Source: an uncultured Chlorobiaceae bacterium (GTDB taxonomy: Bacteria > Bacteroidota > Chlorobiia > Chlorobiales > Chlorobiaceae). From it: a stretch of DNA of 64,000 nucleotides. How positions within the stretch are numbered: the stretch's first letter is position 1; every line of letters begins with the position of its first letter. Both the position numbers and the translations under genes were made by a program. The stretch is taken from contig CAIMPI010000011.1 in NCBI GenBank assembly GCA_903843305.1, positions 1-64,000 of the forward strand. Reading direction: 5' to 3'. Shown piece after piece: positions 35,128-41,039 of the stretch. Below the pieces are notes generated by a model. It was given only the letters and a program-made list of their open reading frames with translations, was not told where the DNA came from and did not search any database.

Positions 35128-36654
35128 TCAGATCTTCTCCCATTCAAACTTGCTGACATTTCTGGCCTTCGGGTCAAAGACGATGCCAATCAGGTAGCGT
35201 TCACCGCTGTATTTCTCGTAATATTTCATCTTTTTGATCTGCTCAAGCGGCTCCTTGTCGGTCACTTTGAACTCAAACAGCAAAGTTTTCCCTTCGACCT
35301 TCAGCGTCAGATCAATTCTGCCCTTGTTACTCACATCCTCGGCGATGATATCGACCCCGAGACTGGCAAAATAGGCATAAAGCACGCTGGCGTAAAAGCC
35401 TTCGTAACTTTCAATAGAGTTGTTGGTGAAATTATTGTAGGCAATGCTTGCAAAAAGGCGTTTGATGACTGGCTCCAAGCGTTCAACAGCTGCGGCGTTG
35501 ATGAGATCAAGCAGCTCATGGCGGATCGGCTCTTTTTCCGAAACACTGGCCATTGATTGCAAAATGTAATTGTTAAAACTGATCTGCACCTCCTTGTTGG
35601 GAAATCCCAACTCGTAACCAACTCCCATGCCTGACGGCAGCACTCTCTTGATGGTCAAATAGCCGGTTTGAAACATAATCGTTTCAAGATTGAGCGACTC
35701 AATGTTAAAGCTGTTGAGCAAACTTTTGTCAACGTTGATATTGAGAAAATCAGGAATGAAATAGCGGTTTTTTTTGATCAACTCAACCAGAAAGCGCGGA
35801 GTACCGGTTTCGAACCAGTAATTGTCAAACACAAACCTGTTCTTGATAAAGAGCAGAATATCATAAGGGTTATAGACTTTGTCACCCAAAAAGTTATACC
35901 CGTTGTACCACCGCTTTACCTGTTCCATTTCGACGCCCTCAAGATATGGAGCAAAAGCGGTCTCCACATCAAGCTGGGTGTAGCCGCAGACAGTGCCATA
36001 GTCGGGATTGAGGCTGATATCTTCGAGATTATTCAAACCACTGAAAAGCGACACCTTGGAGAATTTGCTTACCCCGGTGAGGAAGGTAAAGCGCAGATAC
36101 TCGTCGTTCTCCTTGATTTTTGTATAAAAGTCCCGCATTCCATCCCTGATGGTGAGCGCCTCAGGGATATTTTCAATATTGTCCAGGATGGGCTTGTCGT
36201 ACTCATCAACGAGAATGACAACCTTCTGCTTATATTTCTCGGATGCCTTTTTGATTAATTCTGCAAAAAAGTATTGTGCTCTTGACCTGTTTTCACACTT
36301 CAGCCCAAGTCGCTCCTCATTGGATTTGAGTATGTGCAACAAATCCACCTCAAGATCGGCCTTTGAGTGAACCCCGCCACTGAAACTTATCTTGATGACC
36401 GGCCAGGTCACCTCCCAGTTCCATTGCTCCTCAATGAGAAGCCCCCTGAAAAGCTCCCGTTTTCCCTCAAAAATATTTTTCAGCGTATCAAGAAACAGGC
36501 TTTTGCCGAAACGGCGTGGCCGCGACAGAAAGACATAGCGATAATTGTCAATCAATGCACGGGCAATCTCCGTTTTATCGATGTAAAGATAATCACCCTC
36601 GATGATTGTCCTGAAGGTCTGTATTCCTACTGGCAACTTTTGCATGGCACTCAA
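35128..36654 (-). CDS. AAA-ATPase-like / PD-(D/E)XK protein (DUF1703 type)
   Basis: 508 residues. The N-terminal AAA-ATPase-like domain starts LPVGIQTFRTIIEGDYLYID and has a P-loop-like RPRRFGKSLFL (about residues 45-55) and VVILVDEYDKPIL (Walker B, about 165-177). The C-terminal part carries GRIDLTLKVEGKTLLFEFKV, the D...E-x-K core of a PD-(D/E)XK nuclease. This architecture is widespread and multicopy in Chlorobi and Bacteroidetes; the role is unknown, with a mobile or defence link suspected. A second start (MQKL) lies three codons in. It begins the accessory stretch 35-41 kb. Confidence 0.9.
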   Translation of the reverse strand: MSAMQKLPVGIQTFRTIIEGDYLYIDKTEIARALIDNYRYVFLSRPRRFGKSLFLDTLKNIFEGKRELFRGLLIEEQWNWEVTWPVIKISFSGGVHSKADLEVDLLHILKSNEERLGLKCENRSRAQYFFAELIKKASEKYKQKVVILVDEYDKPILDNIENIPEALTIRDGMRDFYTKIKENDEYLRFTFLTGVSKFSKVSLFSGLNNLEDISLNPDYGTVCGYTQLDVETAFAPYLEGVEMEQVKRWYNGYNFLGDKVYNPYDILLFIKNRFVFDNYWFETGTPRFLVELIKKNRYFIPDFLNINVDKSLLNSFNIESLNLETIMFQTGYLTIKRVLPSGMGVGYELGFPNKEVQISFNNYILQSMASVSEKEPIRHELLDLINAAAVERLEPVIKRLFASIAYNNFTNNSIESYEGFYASVLYAYFASLGVDIIAEDVSNKGRIDLTLKVEGKTLLFEFKVTDKEPLEQIKKMKYYEKYSGERYLIGIVFDPKARNVSKFEWEKI

Positions 36655-37089: not shown

Positions 37090-37171
37090 AGCTCCACTGC
37101 GCCGAGTACCGCACTGCTCCGCCTGATGAGAAAGATCGTATTCTACTGTCCGGTTGAATGATGGGTTAGCC
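37090..37171 (-). other. Half attC site after the GNAT cassette
   Basis: The minus strand reads GGCTAACCCATCATTCAACC just at the stop codon of the GNAT gene, i.e. an attC R'' core (37171-37165) plus L''. R'' is the exact complement of the GTTAGCC boundary at the gene's 5' side (37615-37609), as expected for one cassette. No matching L'-R' half is found before 36900, so the site seems truncated. The remaining bases of 36832-37165 contain nothing else I can name. Confidence 0.5.
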
Positions 37172-37600
37172 CGTGGCAACATGCTTGAACAGAAAAGCGG
37201 ATGAAGACGGGCAAAGCCCTGAGAATTGAGATGTGGCTTGAATGGCCTGTGGTGCCTTTTGACGAGAGGCAGGAGTGTAACCAAGCTTCAAGAAGAAAGC
37301 CTCAGCGGAGGTTGTAAGCAAAAACAGCGAGTCAACGCCATGCGAGGCAGCAAAGTTTTCGAGGAAGATGACCAATTTACGGGCAAGACCACGTTTGCGG
37401 AAAGCTTGAGAAACCGCAAGAGATCGCAGCAAACCGACGGATTGATAGGTTTCCATGCCGATAACGGCAACCAAGGAGCCAGCAACCTGAATACCGAAAA
37501 ACTGTGGTGGCGATGCCGCCGAAATATCAGAAATAGGTAAATTGCAGTCCGTAAGCAGGGGAAGAATTTCGTCGAGCGATGACAGCGGTTCAATGTTCAT
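37166..37600 (-). CDS. GNAT N-acetyltransferase, ArsN2-like (gene cassette)
   Basis: 144 residues of the GNAT fold with the acetyl-CoA loop in FRKRGLARKLV (about residues 72-82), preceded by YQSVGLLRSLAVS. The C-terminal half (LFLLTTSAEAFFLKLGYTPA, then AIQATSQFSGLCPSSSAFLF) is the pattern of ArsN2-type acetyltransferases. The ATG at 37600 comes 9 bases after the attC boundary at 37609. The stop codon TAA lies inside the next attC core (37166-37168), which is usual for integron cassettes. Function in arsenic or organoarsenical resistance is possible, not shown. Confidence 0.82.
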   Translation of the reverse strand: MNIEPLSSLDEILPLLTDCNLPISDISAASPPQFFGIQVAGSLVAVIGMETYQSVGLLRSLAVSQAFRKRGLARKLVIFLENFAASHGVDSLFLLTTSAEAFFLKLGYTPASRQKAPQAIQATSQFSGLCPSSSAFLFKHVATG

Positions 37601-37608
37601 GGGAAGCG

Positions 37609-37667
37609 GGCTAACGATAAAGCTCAGCGGGGCGCGGTAGCGCGTCCGCTGGAGCAACTTGTTCGAT
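37609..37667 (-). other. Integron attC site
   Basis: On the minus strand the site runs from GAACAAGTTGCTCC to TTTATCGTTAGCC. Its centre folds as CAGCGG/CCGCTG and CGCG/CGCG with loop CTAC, has an unpaired base in the outer stem, and ends in the R' core GTTAGCC. These are the features of an attC recombination site. It sits between two small minus-strand genes, 4 bases after the zinc-ribbon gene's stop and 9 bases before the GNAT start. Confidence 0.75.
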
Positions 37668-37670
37668 GAT

Positions 37671-37931
37671 TCATTTCTCTTTCCAGCGGTTTAGTTTTGG
37701 AATGCTTCTGGTAAAGATCCATGCTACAAATCCATGCATTCCCATTTCCTTCATCTTTCCGATGCAGAACTCTTGCATCTTCTGAGGGGTGTTTATTTCA
37801 GGAGAGCTGAAAGCCCCGCCTATGTAGCAGTAGCTGCAATACTCAGTACTCTTGCTGCCGTCAGCATTCGTTCCCCCATTCTGGGGATCTTTTTTTATCG
37901 GCATCCCGCAACTTTGGCAAAACTTGTTCAT
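37671..37931 (-). CDS. Putative zinc-ribbon protein (gene cassette)
   Basis: 86 residues starting MNKFCQSCGMPIKKDP with a second metal-binding pair in EYCSYCYIGG; this is the putative zinc-ribbon family with an N-terminal CQSCGMPL-like motif. The ATG at 37931 follows GGAGAGGAG, a good ribosome site. The stop is 4 bases before an attC site, so it is the cassette upstream of the GNAT gene. Function unknown; such genes are frequent cargo of cassettes. Confidence 0.82.
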   Translation of the reverse strand: MNKFCQSCGMPIKKDPQNGGTNADGSKSTEYCSYCYIGGAFSSPEINTPQKMQEFCIGKMKEMGMHGFVAWIFTRSIPKLNRWKEK

Positions 37932-38133
37932 ATCATCTCCTCTCCATCGAACAATAATTATGTTGATCCACATAAACAGCGGATTCTTGAATTATAAACG
38001 TAAATAGATGTTAATCTTTTATTTTGTTGACACTTATACTATGTAATGCTTCTTATTTCTGTTTTTTATAAGGATCGGCATAAAAGCACTGTTTACTTGC
38101 TCTTTTATGGAAAAGAGTTGATATAATGTACGC

Positions 38134-38307
38134 ATGGATTTTGAGTATTCCATCGGCGGTGGTGTAATATTTTTCGCAGCGGTATGGGCAGTTCAGTGGA
38201 AGCGAAAGCAAATATGCTTGCAGATCGGCGTGAAAGCCAAGTGCTTTCAGAGGTTTGGGTTAAGCCAGAACTGGCGGTGTGAACAAAAGCCTATGGCGCA
38301 ATTTTAG
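38134..38307 (+). CDS. Doubtful small ORF, 57 aa
   Basis: ATG at 38134 with TATAAT just upstream (38122-38127), starting MDFEYSIGGGVIFFAAVWAV and rich in Gln, Lys and Cys later. It overlaps the end of the GH25 gene by 17 bases. No homologue comes to mind, so it may be chance. Otherwise the 37932-38290 gap shows no feature. Confidence 0.2.
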   Translation: MDFEYSIGGGVIFFAAVWAVQWKRKQICLQIGVKAKCFQRFGLSQNWRCEQKPMAQF

Positions 38308-39010
38308 TGAGCGGCCAAGCCACCTTGAGTTGTTCGGAGCTGCCATTAAACACGTTTATGTCCATATCGGGTTTTGTGCCGGGTATGGGCATCTGGGGAA
38401 GTATCTCACTGGAAAACTGCCAAAGTGTGTAGGTGGGCCAGACGCCGTGTGGAAAGTCGGTGACCTTTGACTTAAAGCGCGCGTACCAAAGCGGTGTCTT
38501 CGAGAATACGCTGTTTTTATATTTAGCAGCTATGAGTTTCGCACTGGAGTGATTGGTGTAGAGAACCGGGTAGCGACCTGTACGAGCTTTTACGCGCTCC
38601 ACAAACAGGATGGCCTCGTCTACGTTCATCAGAGTTTTTGACTGAGCGTCTTCAAGGTCCAATGCGATCAGTTCATCGGGTTCCGGTTTGACCGTATCGA
38701 TGTAAAAGTCAGCCTGTTTTTCGGGTTGGCCGCTTATACCCCAGTGATACGAGCCCCAGAGGTAACCGTGTTTGCGAGCCTCTTCCTTGCGCTTTCTGTA
38801 GCCGGGATCAAGTTTCGTTGTGCCGATTGTGGCCTTGTGAATGATCGCGACGACCCGCGGTTCAGTTTTCAACTTGTTCCAATCAATTGCGTTCGCGTAG
38901 TACGGATCGATTACGATGGCGACCTTCGGATCCTTCCAAGGGGCATTAAACTCGGCCGAAGAGGCAATGGCAGGAAGCATCAGGAGCACAAAAAAAGCAA
39001 TCTTGTTCAT
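38291..39010 (-). CDS. Glycoside hydrolase family 25 lysozyme-like protein
   Basis: 239 residues with a signal peptide (MNKIAFFVLLMLPAIASSAE). The GH25 barrel is visible: VIDPYYANAIDWNKL at strand 1, IIHKATIGTTKLDPGY, YHWGISGQPEKQADFYI and the catalytic ALDLED. PVLYTNHSSAKLI and YTLWQFSS are typical later strands. It would cut peptidoglycan in the periplasm or outside. The ATG at 39010 gives the signal sequence; the frame is open to 39118. Upstream lie IS21-like repeats. Confidence 0.87.
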   Translation of the reverse strand: MNKIAFFVLLMLPAIASSAEFNAPWKDPKVAIVIDPYYANAIDWNKLKTEPRVVAIIHKATIGTTKLDPGYRKRKEEARKHGYLWGSYHWGISGQPEKQADFYIDTVKPEPDELIALDLEDAQSKTLMNVDEAILFVERVKARTGRYPVLYTNHSSAKLIAAKYKNSVFSKTPLWYARFKSKVTDFPHGVWPTYTLWQFSSEILPQMPIPGTKPDMDINVFNGSSEQLKVAWPLTKIAP

Positions 39011-39045
39011 GGAACGTCTCCTTGTTGGGTCTGAGTATTCCGGTG

Positions 39046-39115
39046 AAAGTTTACCACTGATTCCTTGCGAATATGTACCACCGGTTCCGGTGCAAAGTGT
39101 ACCACCTTTTTCATG
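39046..39115. repeat. Three 24-bp-spaced repeats, IS21-like end
   Basis: TTTACCACTGATTCC, TGTACCACCGGTTCCGG and GTGTACCACCTTTTTC have their ACCAC cores at 39053, 39077 and 39101, i.e. exactly 24 bases apart. IS21-family elements carry such multiple terminal repeats for transposase binding. No istA or istB is present, so this would be an isolated end remnant just upstream of the GH25 gene. Confidence 0.5.
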
Positions 39116-39265
39116 CAAGATTTGCTTTTAGAACTTACAGAATTATTTCCAAATTCCTTCTTCGTAATGATTCACCTTTCAACTCAATTCGGTGGGTATT
39201 TCCGACTATACATCTTTTGTCCTCCTGTGTCGTGCCGGGCCTAACATTGTTAAGACTGATTAGGT

Positions 39266-39864: not shown

Positions 39865-40692
39865 CTATTTGGAGGAAATTCCCCGCTGAGTGGCCGGACA
39901 CTCAAGCTGTGCAACCTGCGCATAATGATTGGCTGCGAGATCCGTATTCACCTTCTTGAGCAGATCTTTCCGCGAGATATTGTTCTTTGCGGTGGTGGTT
40001 TCCTTGACCCAGTAATAAGTGAAGGCGCCATGATAGGTGCCGCCGATATAAGCATCGGCGCTGGTCTGGTTGTCCCGACAAGCGGCCCAGAGGATGACGT
40101 TCTTGGCTGCCTTTTCCACCACACGGCGACTCAGACCCCGGGCCATGAGGGGCATCACCTTCTCGCACGCAGCCAAGGATGGCGGCGCGATATAGCGGGG
40201 TCGGCGATTAGGCATGAGGTCTGAAGCCTTGAGGCCAGTGCCCGAGTGACAGGTGTCCAGATACACCTCTATGAGAACGTTGTCCGGCACCTGCGCCAAT
40301 AGATCGTGCAGTTCGTCGTCAACGATGACGTGATTCGGATCCCATTGGCCGCTTTTTTCCGCCAGGTCATGAGGGCAAAAAGCCTCGTCATAATGATCGG
40401 CCTCATCAGCGTTCTTGTCTGGCACCTGGGTGCCGTGGCTCGAAAGGCTGAACACGAGATAGCTGTACTTGCCGGTCTTGGCTCCACTGACCATTGCAGT
40501 CAGTTCAGCCATGATTGCCTGCTTTGTGGCTTGGGCATCGGTCAATACCTTGATGTCTCCTGCGGCAAAGCCAAGATATGTCTCAAGGATCCCGACCATC
40601 TGGTTGGCGTCGTTGACACATCCGTGCAAGGTGCTACCGGGATAGTTCTTGAAAACGTTGATCCCAACGCAAAGCGCTCTACGGTTTGACAT
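39865..40692 (-). CDS. Caspase-family (metacaspase-like) cysteine protease
   Basis: 275 residues of peptidase family C14. The N-terminus RRALCVGINVFKNYPGSTLH and the catalytic His in FSLSSHGTQVPD (about residue 86) and Cys in VYLDTCHSGTG (about residue 147) are both present. There is no signal peptide or partner domain, so it is cytoplasmic and single-domain. Bacterial caspase-like proteases are often parts of cell-death or defence systems; the cue here is its accessory neighbourhood, so this is inference. The 40693-41038 gap upstream holds no gene I can support, only a short GTAAGTGA-type repeat near 40698. Confidence 0.9.
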   Translation of the reverse strand: MSNRRALCVGINVFKNYPGSTLHGCVNDANQMVGILETYLGFAAGDIKVLTDAQATKQAIMAELTAMVSGAKTGKYSYLVFSLSSHGTQVPDKNADEADHYDEAFCPHDLAEKSGQWDPNHVIVDDELHDLLAQVPDNVLIEVYLDTCHSGTGLKASDLMPNRRPRYIAPPSLAACEKVMPLMARGLSRRVVEKAAKNVILWAACRDNQTSADAYIGGTYHGAFTYYWVKETTTAKNNISRKDLLKKVNTDLAANHYAQVAQLECPATQRGISSK

Positions 40693-41039
40693 TTTAGTCT
40701 CCTAAGTAAGTGAGTAAGTGAAAATTACTGTGCTTTTTACGGAAACGGCTGTTTGAAACTTGGGCAATAGTTACCTATTATTACGCAATAATCTTTATCA
40801 CCTCCTTGCTGTCTTCTGTGTTCCCAAACATAGTTCAGATTGATCCGCCTAATACGGAAAAAGCAGAATGTTTCTTTCGGTATAACAATTCAAGAAGTCC
40901 CTTCTTTTCTGTAAGTTAGAAACTCTGGAGTATTTATCAATGAGCTGGAGGTTGCGGCCGATTTTTTTTAGTGGTTTTTACCCCGTTGTATAACAAGGTA
41001 AAGGGTTTCTTGCCGATTCGGCTGGGGCGACATCATTCT

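Follow-up and report, generated by a model that had tools for sequence, protein, structure and literature searches.

The locus described here is very probably an integron site without an integrase: a chromosomal attI that lacks intI, into which two gene cassettes have been inserted site-specifically by an integron integrase, and which is one of many such orphan sites. The window, by which we mean the whole stretch of 64,000 nucleotides analysed, belongs to a genome of 2.59 Mb in 55 contigs that is 99.9% complete. Its assignment to a green sulfur bacterium in the first-pass annotation agrees with one same-genus genome being a Chlorobiaceae MAG. Read on the minus strand from 38095 to 37146, the locus consists of an attI, a zinc-ribbon cassette, a complete attC, an ArsN2 acetyltransferase cassette and the left half of a truncated attC. 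Cassette capture at this place is well supported. The zinc-ribbon and ArsN2 genes are true and fairly ordinary integron cassettes; the added interest lies in the integrase-less attI, its dispersal and the turnover of the cassettes. The features of the locus and its surroundings are the following:

37946 to 38095, minus strand: attI-A, the integron integration site; its 3' end is the core GTTCGAT (minus strand); located by nhmmer and alignment.
37615 to 37951, minus strand: zinc-ribbon gene cassette, the first of the two; its 5' core GTTCGAT is exactly complementary to R'' ATCGAAC.
37671 to 37931, minus strand: gene of an 86-residue Zn_ribbon_2 protein (Pfam PF12674; the longer reading frame matches at E 7e-23).
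37609 to 37667, minus strand: the one complete attC, belonging to the zinc-ribbon cassette, with R'' at 37667-37661 and R' at 37615-37609; it scores 44.3 by position-weight matrix and stem.
37166 to 37600, minus strand: gene of an ArsN2-family GNAT acetyltransferase, in the second cassette (NCBIfam NF040501; Pfam PF00583).
37146 to 37171, minus strand: what is left of the truncated GNAT-cassette attC: R'' and the left arm, forming its left half; GGCTAAC is the exact complement of the 5' core of the cassette.
38280 to 39027, minus strand: 748-bp block, probably a former cassette, that includes a GH25 gene (38291-39010) and matches a block on contig C9 of genome G205 at 92% identity.
40825 to 40887, minus strand: second attI-like copy, type B, partial (3' part only); nhmmer E 2.6e-6, type-B profile E 3.8e-9.

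The attC sites were scored by a position-weight matrix and a stem score, trained on 16 attC sites of other Chlorobiaceae loci. The site at 37609-37667 reaches 44.3 on the minus strand, the runner-up in the 64-kb window (20.4) is the same site on the opposite strand, and the maximum across 30 shuffled windows is 23.5. A foldable attC between two minus-strand genes had been proposed for exactly this place, with a model search as the check; our own matrix and stem model finds it there, well outside the shuffles. Plain folding of the DNA is moderately better than that of shuffled sequences (z -2.3 on the minus strand, -1.7 on the plus strand), so that the fold by itself is no proof of an attC. The site is oriented like the zinc-ribbon and GNAT genes and joins the R'' of its own cassette (ATCGAAC) to the R' of the following one (GTTAGCC), the pattern of integrated cassettes. 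The zinc-ribbon cassette has the R''-L''-L'-R' arrangement with hairpin arms at the 3' end of its gene that defines a gene cassette; the GNAT cassette keeps the left half only, of which GGCTAACCCATCATTCAACCGGACAG is the sole remnant. Its left arm resembles that of a complete attC at position 13745 of contig C46 in the same genome (CGCTAACCCATCGGTCAACCGGACG).

In both cassettes the 5' core is complementary to the R'' of the same cassette, exactly over all seven bases, as in a free cassette. The zinc-ribbon 5' core GTTCGAT (minus strand; ATCGAAC at 37946-37952 on the plus strand) pairs with R'' ATCGAAC. In the GNAT cassette the R'' core is GGCTAAC (37171-37165); it contains the TAA stop of the gene and is exactly complementary to the 5' core GTTAGCC, as the first-pass annotation had read it. 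The positions given there are also right (plus strand: GGCTAAC at 37609-37615, GTTCGAT at 37661-37667 and GTTAGCC at 37165-37171). That account is correct and understated: it has neither the 5' core of the zinc-ribbon cassette (37946-37952) nor the attI that lies upstream of this core.

In intact integrons of the same genus, intI reads towards the cassettes, and a sequence of about 160-175 bp separates the intI stop from the first core. In the window, the sequence ahead of the zinc-ribbon gene is a homologue of this site, which follows intI in intact integrons of the same family. An attI profile was built from nine intact Chlorobiaceae integrons, with the genome of the window left out; this independent profile matches 38089-37947 on the minus strand at E 2.6e-9, while the best match in 30 shuffled windows has E 1.9, and the attI of a complete integron is therefore present. 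Among the attI copies, that of the window is one of the more divergent: it is 64-68% identical to intact type-A copies across 152 columns and, compared with other copies, lacks about 26 bases internally. The crossover lies between G37952 and T37951. The subfamily to which this attI belongs has a common upstream sequence that is not intI (GGAATACTCAAAATCC-TGCGTACATTA...).

Some further properties of the attI were observed. The consensus of 47 type-A sites has an inverted repeat, CCATATAAGACGC...GCGTCTTATATGG, with arms about 75 bases apart that are both mostly well conserved; it may be an operator or an integrase-binding element. A promoter pattern scan of 37946-38095 found none, an RNA structure in the attI leader has no support (consensus energy -0.22 kcal/mol), and an Rfam scan of the window gave nothing at gathering thresholds. 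In genome G079 (locus L079, 9880-10108) some 50 bases separate an intact attI from the 3' part of a type-B attI behind it, a tandem of attI sites without an intervening gene.

The window has no significant tblastn match to IntI or to an IntI relic, which bears out the statement that no integrase gene is present in it, and no intI adjoins the attI as it does in a complete integron. A search for intI and further attC sites elsewhere in the genome had been recommended, and it leads to contig C46. There, the only intI trace of the genome, a 3'-end relic with stops, stands ahead of its attI, an ORF and a complete attC whose core matches. The draft genome gave no intact IntI. Full-length IntI is encoded by 12 of the 65 same-genus genomes, and the intact IntI there has the same attI. 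Other genomes of the genus have this same flank ahead of intI, and the C46 site therefore looks like the ancestral platform. A unit of intI and attI with a fixed 5' end was considered and rejected; the common upstream start is the serB-side flank of the ancestral locus, not the end of an element. The original proposal that the genes were captured by an integron integrase now has behind it the attI, the complete attC, both core pairs, the C46 relic and the intact same-genus IntI with the same attI.

Copies of attI were counted with an attI sequence model that includes the window copies. This genome has about 18. Within the genus, attI places are found in 56 of the 65 genomes, with up to 16 per genome; a second genus of the family also has many copies, and the rest of the phylum hardly any. 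Genome G169, a single contig of 2.80 Mb (a closed chromosome), has 10 attI copies, and a search at E 1e-40 found no IntI match in it, so that assembly gaps or contig ends do not explain the pattern. Two other single-contig genomes, G102 (2,154,946 bp) and G063 (2,289,249 bp), have attI copies as well. The 5' endpoints of the copies vary, many lying near the intI stop. Many copies retain an intI 3' tail of variable length, and some retain an internally deleted intI promoter region; the retention of part of the intI 3' end by so many copies indicates that the attI derives from integron platforms.

Whether orphan sites are loaded was examined by taking the 7-base core at the attI end and requiring its exact complement downstream together with an attC-like stem. 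Among the 73 attI copies that do not adjoin an intact integrase, 20 have an attC with their own core, against 0.75 expected from a core swap; in 300 permutations the count averaged 1.8 and peaked at 6. Because the loci are partly related or orthologous, these counts are not fully independent. In G169, five of the eight tested copies are loaded, against 0.01 expected. The other 53 orphan copies have no own-core attC in this test, and decayed or solitary sites are frequent among them.

The cassettes behind orthologous orphan sites differ between species. Contig C31 of G000 and contig C5 of G280 are 89% identical over 2.06 kb upstream, as far as the core. The next 3.25 kb or so are unrelated except for a short stretch matching a second attI copy, after which 646 bp agree at 96%. 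Judged from the translations, the gene there is TIR-like in G000 and probably encodes a cytosine methyltransferase in G280. In the second genus, four loci (L214, L217, L223 and L227) have 1.5 kb upstream in common at 82-89% and four different cores; tblastn found no intI remnant at any of them. In all 103 locus pairs with a homologous upstream side, homology ends 3-15 bases past the core start. As the attI homology itself ends at the core, this stop position cannot separate integrase action from homologous exchange; it is the core-matched attC that constitutes the evidence for IntI chemistry. Different attI loci also have blocks in common at 92-98% identity. For the window locus itself, neither an orthologous partner nor an empty site was found.

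By combining these observations, it is possible to describe a likely history of the locus. An integron integrase very probably put the zinc-ribbon and ArsN2 cassettes into a chromosomal attI, and a deletion later broke the ArsN2 attC. With the loss of intI the array would then have become frozen in this genome, which is probable because the ArsN2 attC is broken and no intact IntI was found in the draft genome. More generally, the orphan attI sites in Chlorobiaceae are very probably derived from integron platforms and have exchanged cassettes. The attI, the attC, the core pairs, the dispersal and the differing cassettes at orthologous orphan sites are observed; the action of IntI in trans, or in cis at an earlier time, the route by which the attI sites multiplied and continued expression from the attI leader are inferred. 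Chance occurrence of a hairpin and of core repeats between ordinary genes finds some comfort in the modest z-score of the plain fold and is nevertheless extremely improbable; the attC score far beyond the shuffles, the attI homology with its profile match, the core matches of two cassettes and the loading test led to its rejection.

How so many attI sites came to lack an integrase can be explained in several ways. Each orphan attI might be the remnant of a complete integron (intI, attI and cassettes) that formerly stood there, the cassettes having been inserted while intI was in cis and intI having then decayed. The variable intI 3' tails of many copies and the internally deleted intI promoter regions of some are what such decay would leave, and roughly one intI gene in three is a pseudogene, with several intI genes in some genomes (PMC2426708). 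On the other hand, the number of relics, about 18, is large for genomes with a single identifiable ancestral platform each, and the four orthologous loci of the second genus have no detectable intI yet different cassettes, so that turnover seems to outlast the loss of intI in cis. This explanation has close to an even chance of being correct. A distributed integron of the Chlorobiaceae, in which many attI sites, most of them without an integrase, are loaded in trans by one IntI from a single platform that is sometimes later lost, is proposed tentatively; if it exists, captured genes are shelved at many places rather than in one array.

Alternatively, the attI might have been carried by another mobile element, or have moved as an unusual attI-type cassette, a gene with an attI replacing its attC. 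The common non-intI sequence upstream of the window subfamily speaks for a carrier, as does a 930-bp module of two genes that stands behind four attI loci in different chromosomal settings, and Delta-attI-type cassettes are mobile in class 1 and class 2 integrons (PMC12901181). The module and the upstream sequence may be the trace of such a carrier. With varying 5' endpoints and no consistent 5' terminus, target duplication or transposase found, this route appears rather unlikely. Exchange of the cassettes solely by homologous recombination between loci or strains, with no IntI in trans, is judged distinctly unlikely. The homology needed could be supplied by the attI and the flanks, the downstream flank does resume in G000 and G280, and recombination between attI-flanked loci also predicts that homology ends at the core. 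It leaves unexplained, however, why the junction of attI and cassette lies at the crossover point with a matching R'' core, and it requires homology on the far side, which is present in only some pairs. Insertion by an integron integrase into an attI without its own intI is the preferred reading of the window locus.

The two small genes of the 930-bp module appear HTH-like and repressor-like by eye. At L149 the module lies at +920 to +1855 from the attI end; it is also found at L165, L170 and L180, and at all four loci it stands behind the cassettes, with differing further flanks.

The GNAT protein, first described as ArsN2-like, scores above the curated cut-off of NCBIfam model NF040501 (137 against 125 bits). 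Its relatives within the genus are at most 54% identical, so that their flanks are uninformative on the window cassette. The refuting outcome named beforehand, no attC hit together with GNAT relatives lacking flanking attC, did not arise. The plasmid relatives of the protein are less than 60% identical and, among the matches listed, mostly annotated as ArsN2; several of them overlap an arsB annotation. No GNAT relatives were found in the genome contigs searched, and no DNA similarity to the locus in plasmids. The zinc-ribbon block has a 94%-identical copy in a Chlorobiaceae MAG; this copy has no attC, and from the core behind the gene onwards its DNA is divergent. No zinc-ribbon relative in other phyla has a convincing core and attC signature. 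At locus L204, in a Pseudomonadota MAG, a zinc-ribbon relative stands directly behind an attC-like hairpin, recognised by eye, that ends in CGTTAGGC, an arrangement which suggests that this family travels as a cassette elsewhere too.

The surroundings of the array contain further pieces of this kind. The GH25 gene sits between attI-A and the partial type-B attI, and the counterpart of its block in G205 begins immediately after an attI core. Directly upstream of the block, 39032-39208 is a repeat that recurs at 91-92% identity on contigs C31 (534-706) and C32 (142-318), near the contig starts, and is probably the end of an insertion sequence. The partial type-B attI (40887-40825) is located upstream of an ORF with a caspase domain (Peptidase_C14; 39865-40692), which matches the PADLOC caspase model at E 6.8e-15 and is possible defence-like cargo. 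On the other side, an AAA-ATPase_like/PDDEXK_9 gene (35128-36654), of a family that is multicopy across the genus (76-87% DNA identity), adjoins the truncated attC.

Integrons in Chlorobi are already known (PMC9024848; PMC2426708), and decay of intI is common (PMC2426708). No paper on dispersed attI sites in Chlorobiaceae was found in a search that mostly did not extend to subscription journals, so that a prior description is possible. Integrons are usually described as a single platform with one attI (PMC3607928) beside the integrase; the chromosomes described here, among them a closed one in which no IntI match was found, have captured genes at scattered orphan attI sites. In the sedentary chromosomal integrons of the Treponema type, beside which the intI of Chlorobium phaeobacteroides has been placed, intI reads towards attI (PMC3607928). 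The window locus differs from them in having no intI, and its attI is multiple and dispersed.

A CALIN is a cluster of attC sites without an integron integrase, with at least two attC as the default in IntegronFinder 2, and CALINs are regarded as degraded integrons (PMC9024848). The window locus resembles them in having attC-bearing cassettes without intI. It differs in its recognisable attI, in being one of many dispersed copies, and in having one complete and one half attC, below the two-attC default; searches that demand intI or two attC sites would miss such loci.

Cassettes away from an integron platform are also known at attG, the non-classical genomic insertion sites (PMC12901181), although the target here is a true attI homologue and not an unrelated genomic site. 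In the Delta-attI-type cassettes of class 1 and class 2 integrons, partial attI copies of variable length act as additional recombination sites (PMC12901181). Those lie inside the arrays of mobile integrons, 3' of a gene, whereas the copies described here are 150-175 bp long, stand 5' of the cassettes and occupy many chromosomal places. Dispersed orphan sites of this kind make three matters testable: the service of distant attI sites by one integrase, the mobility of attI itself, and the persistence of cassettes after the integrase has been lost.
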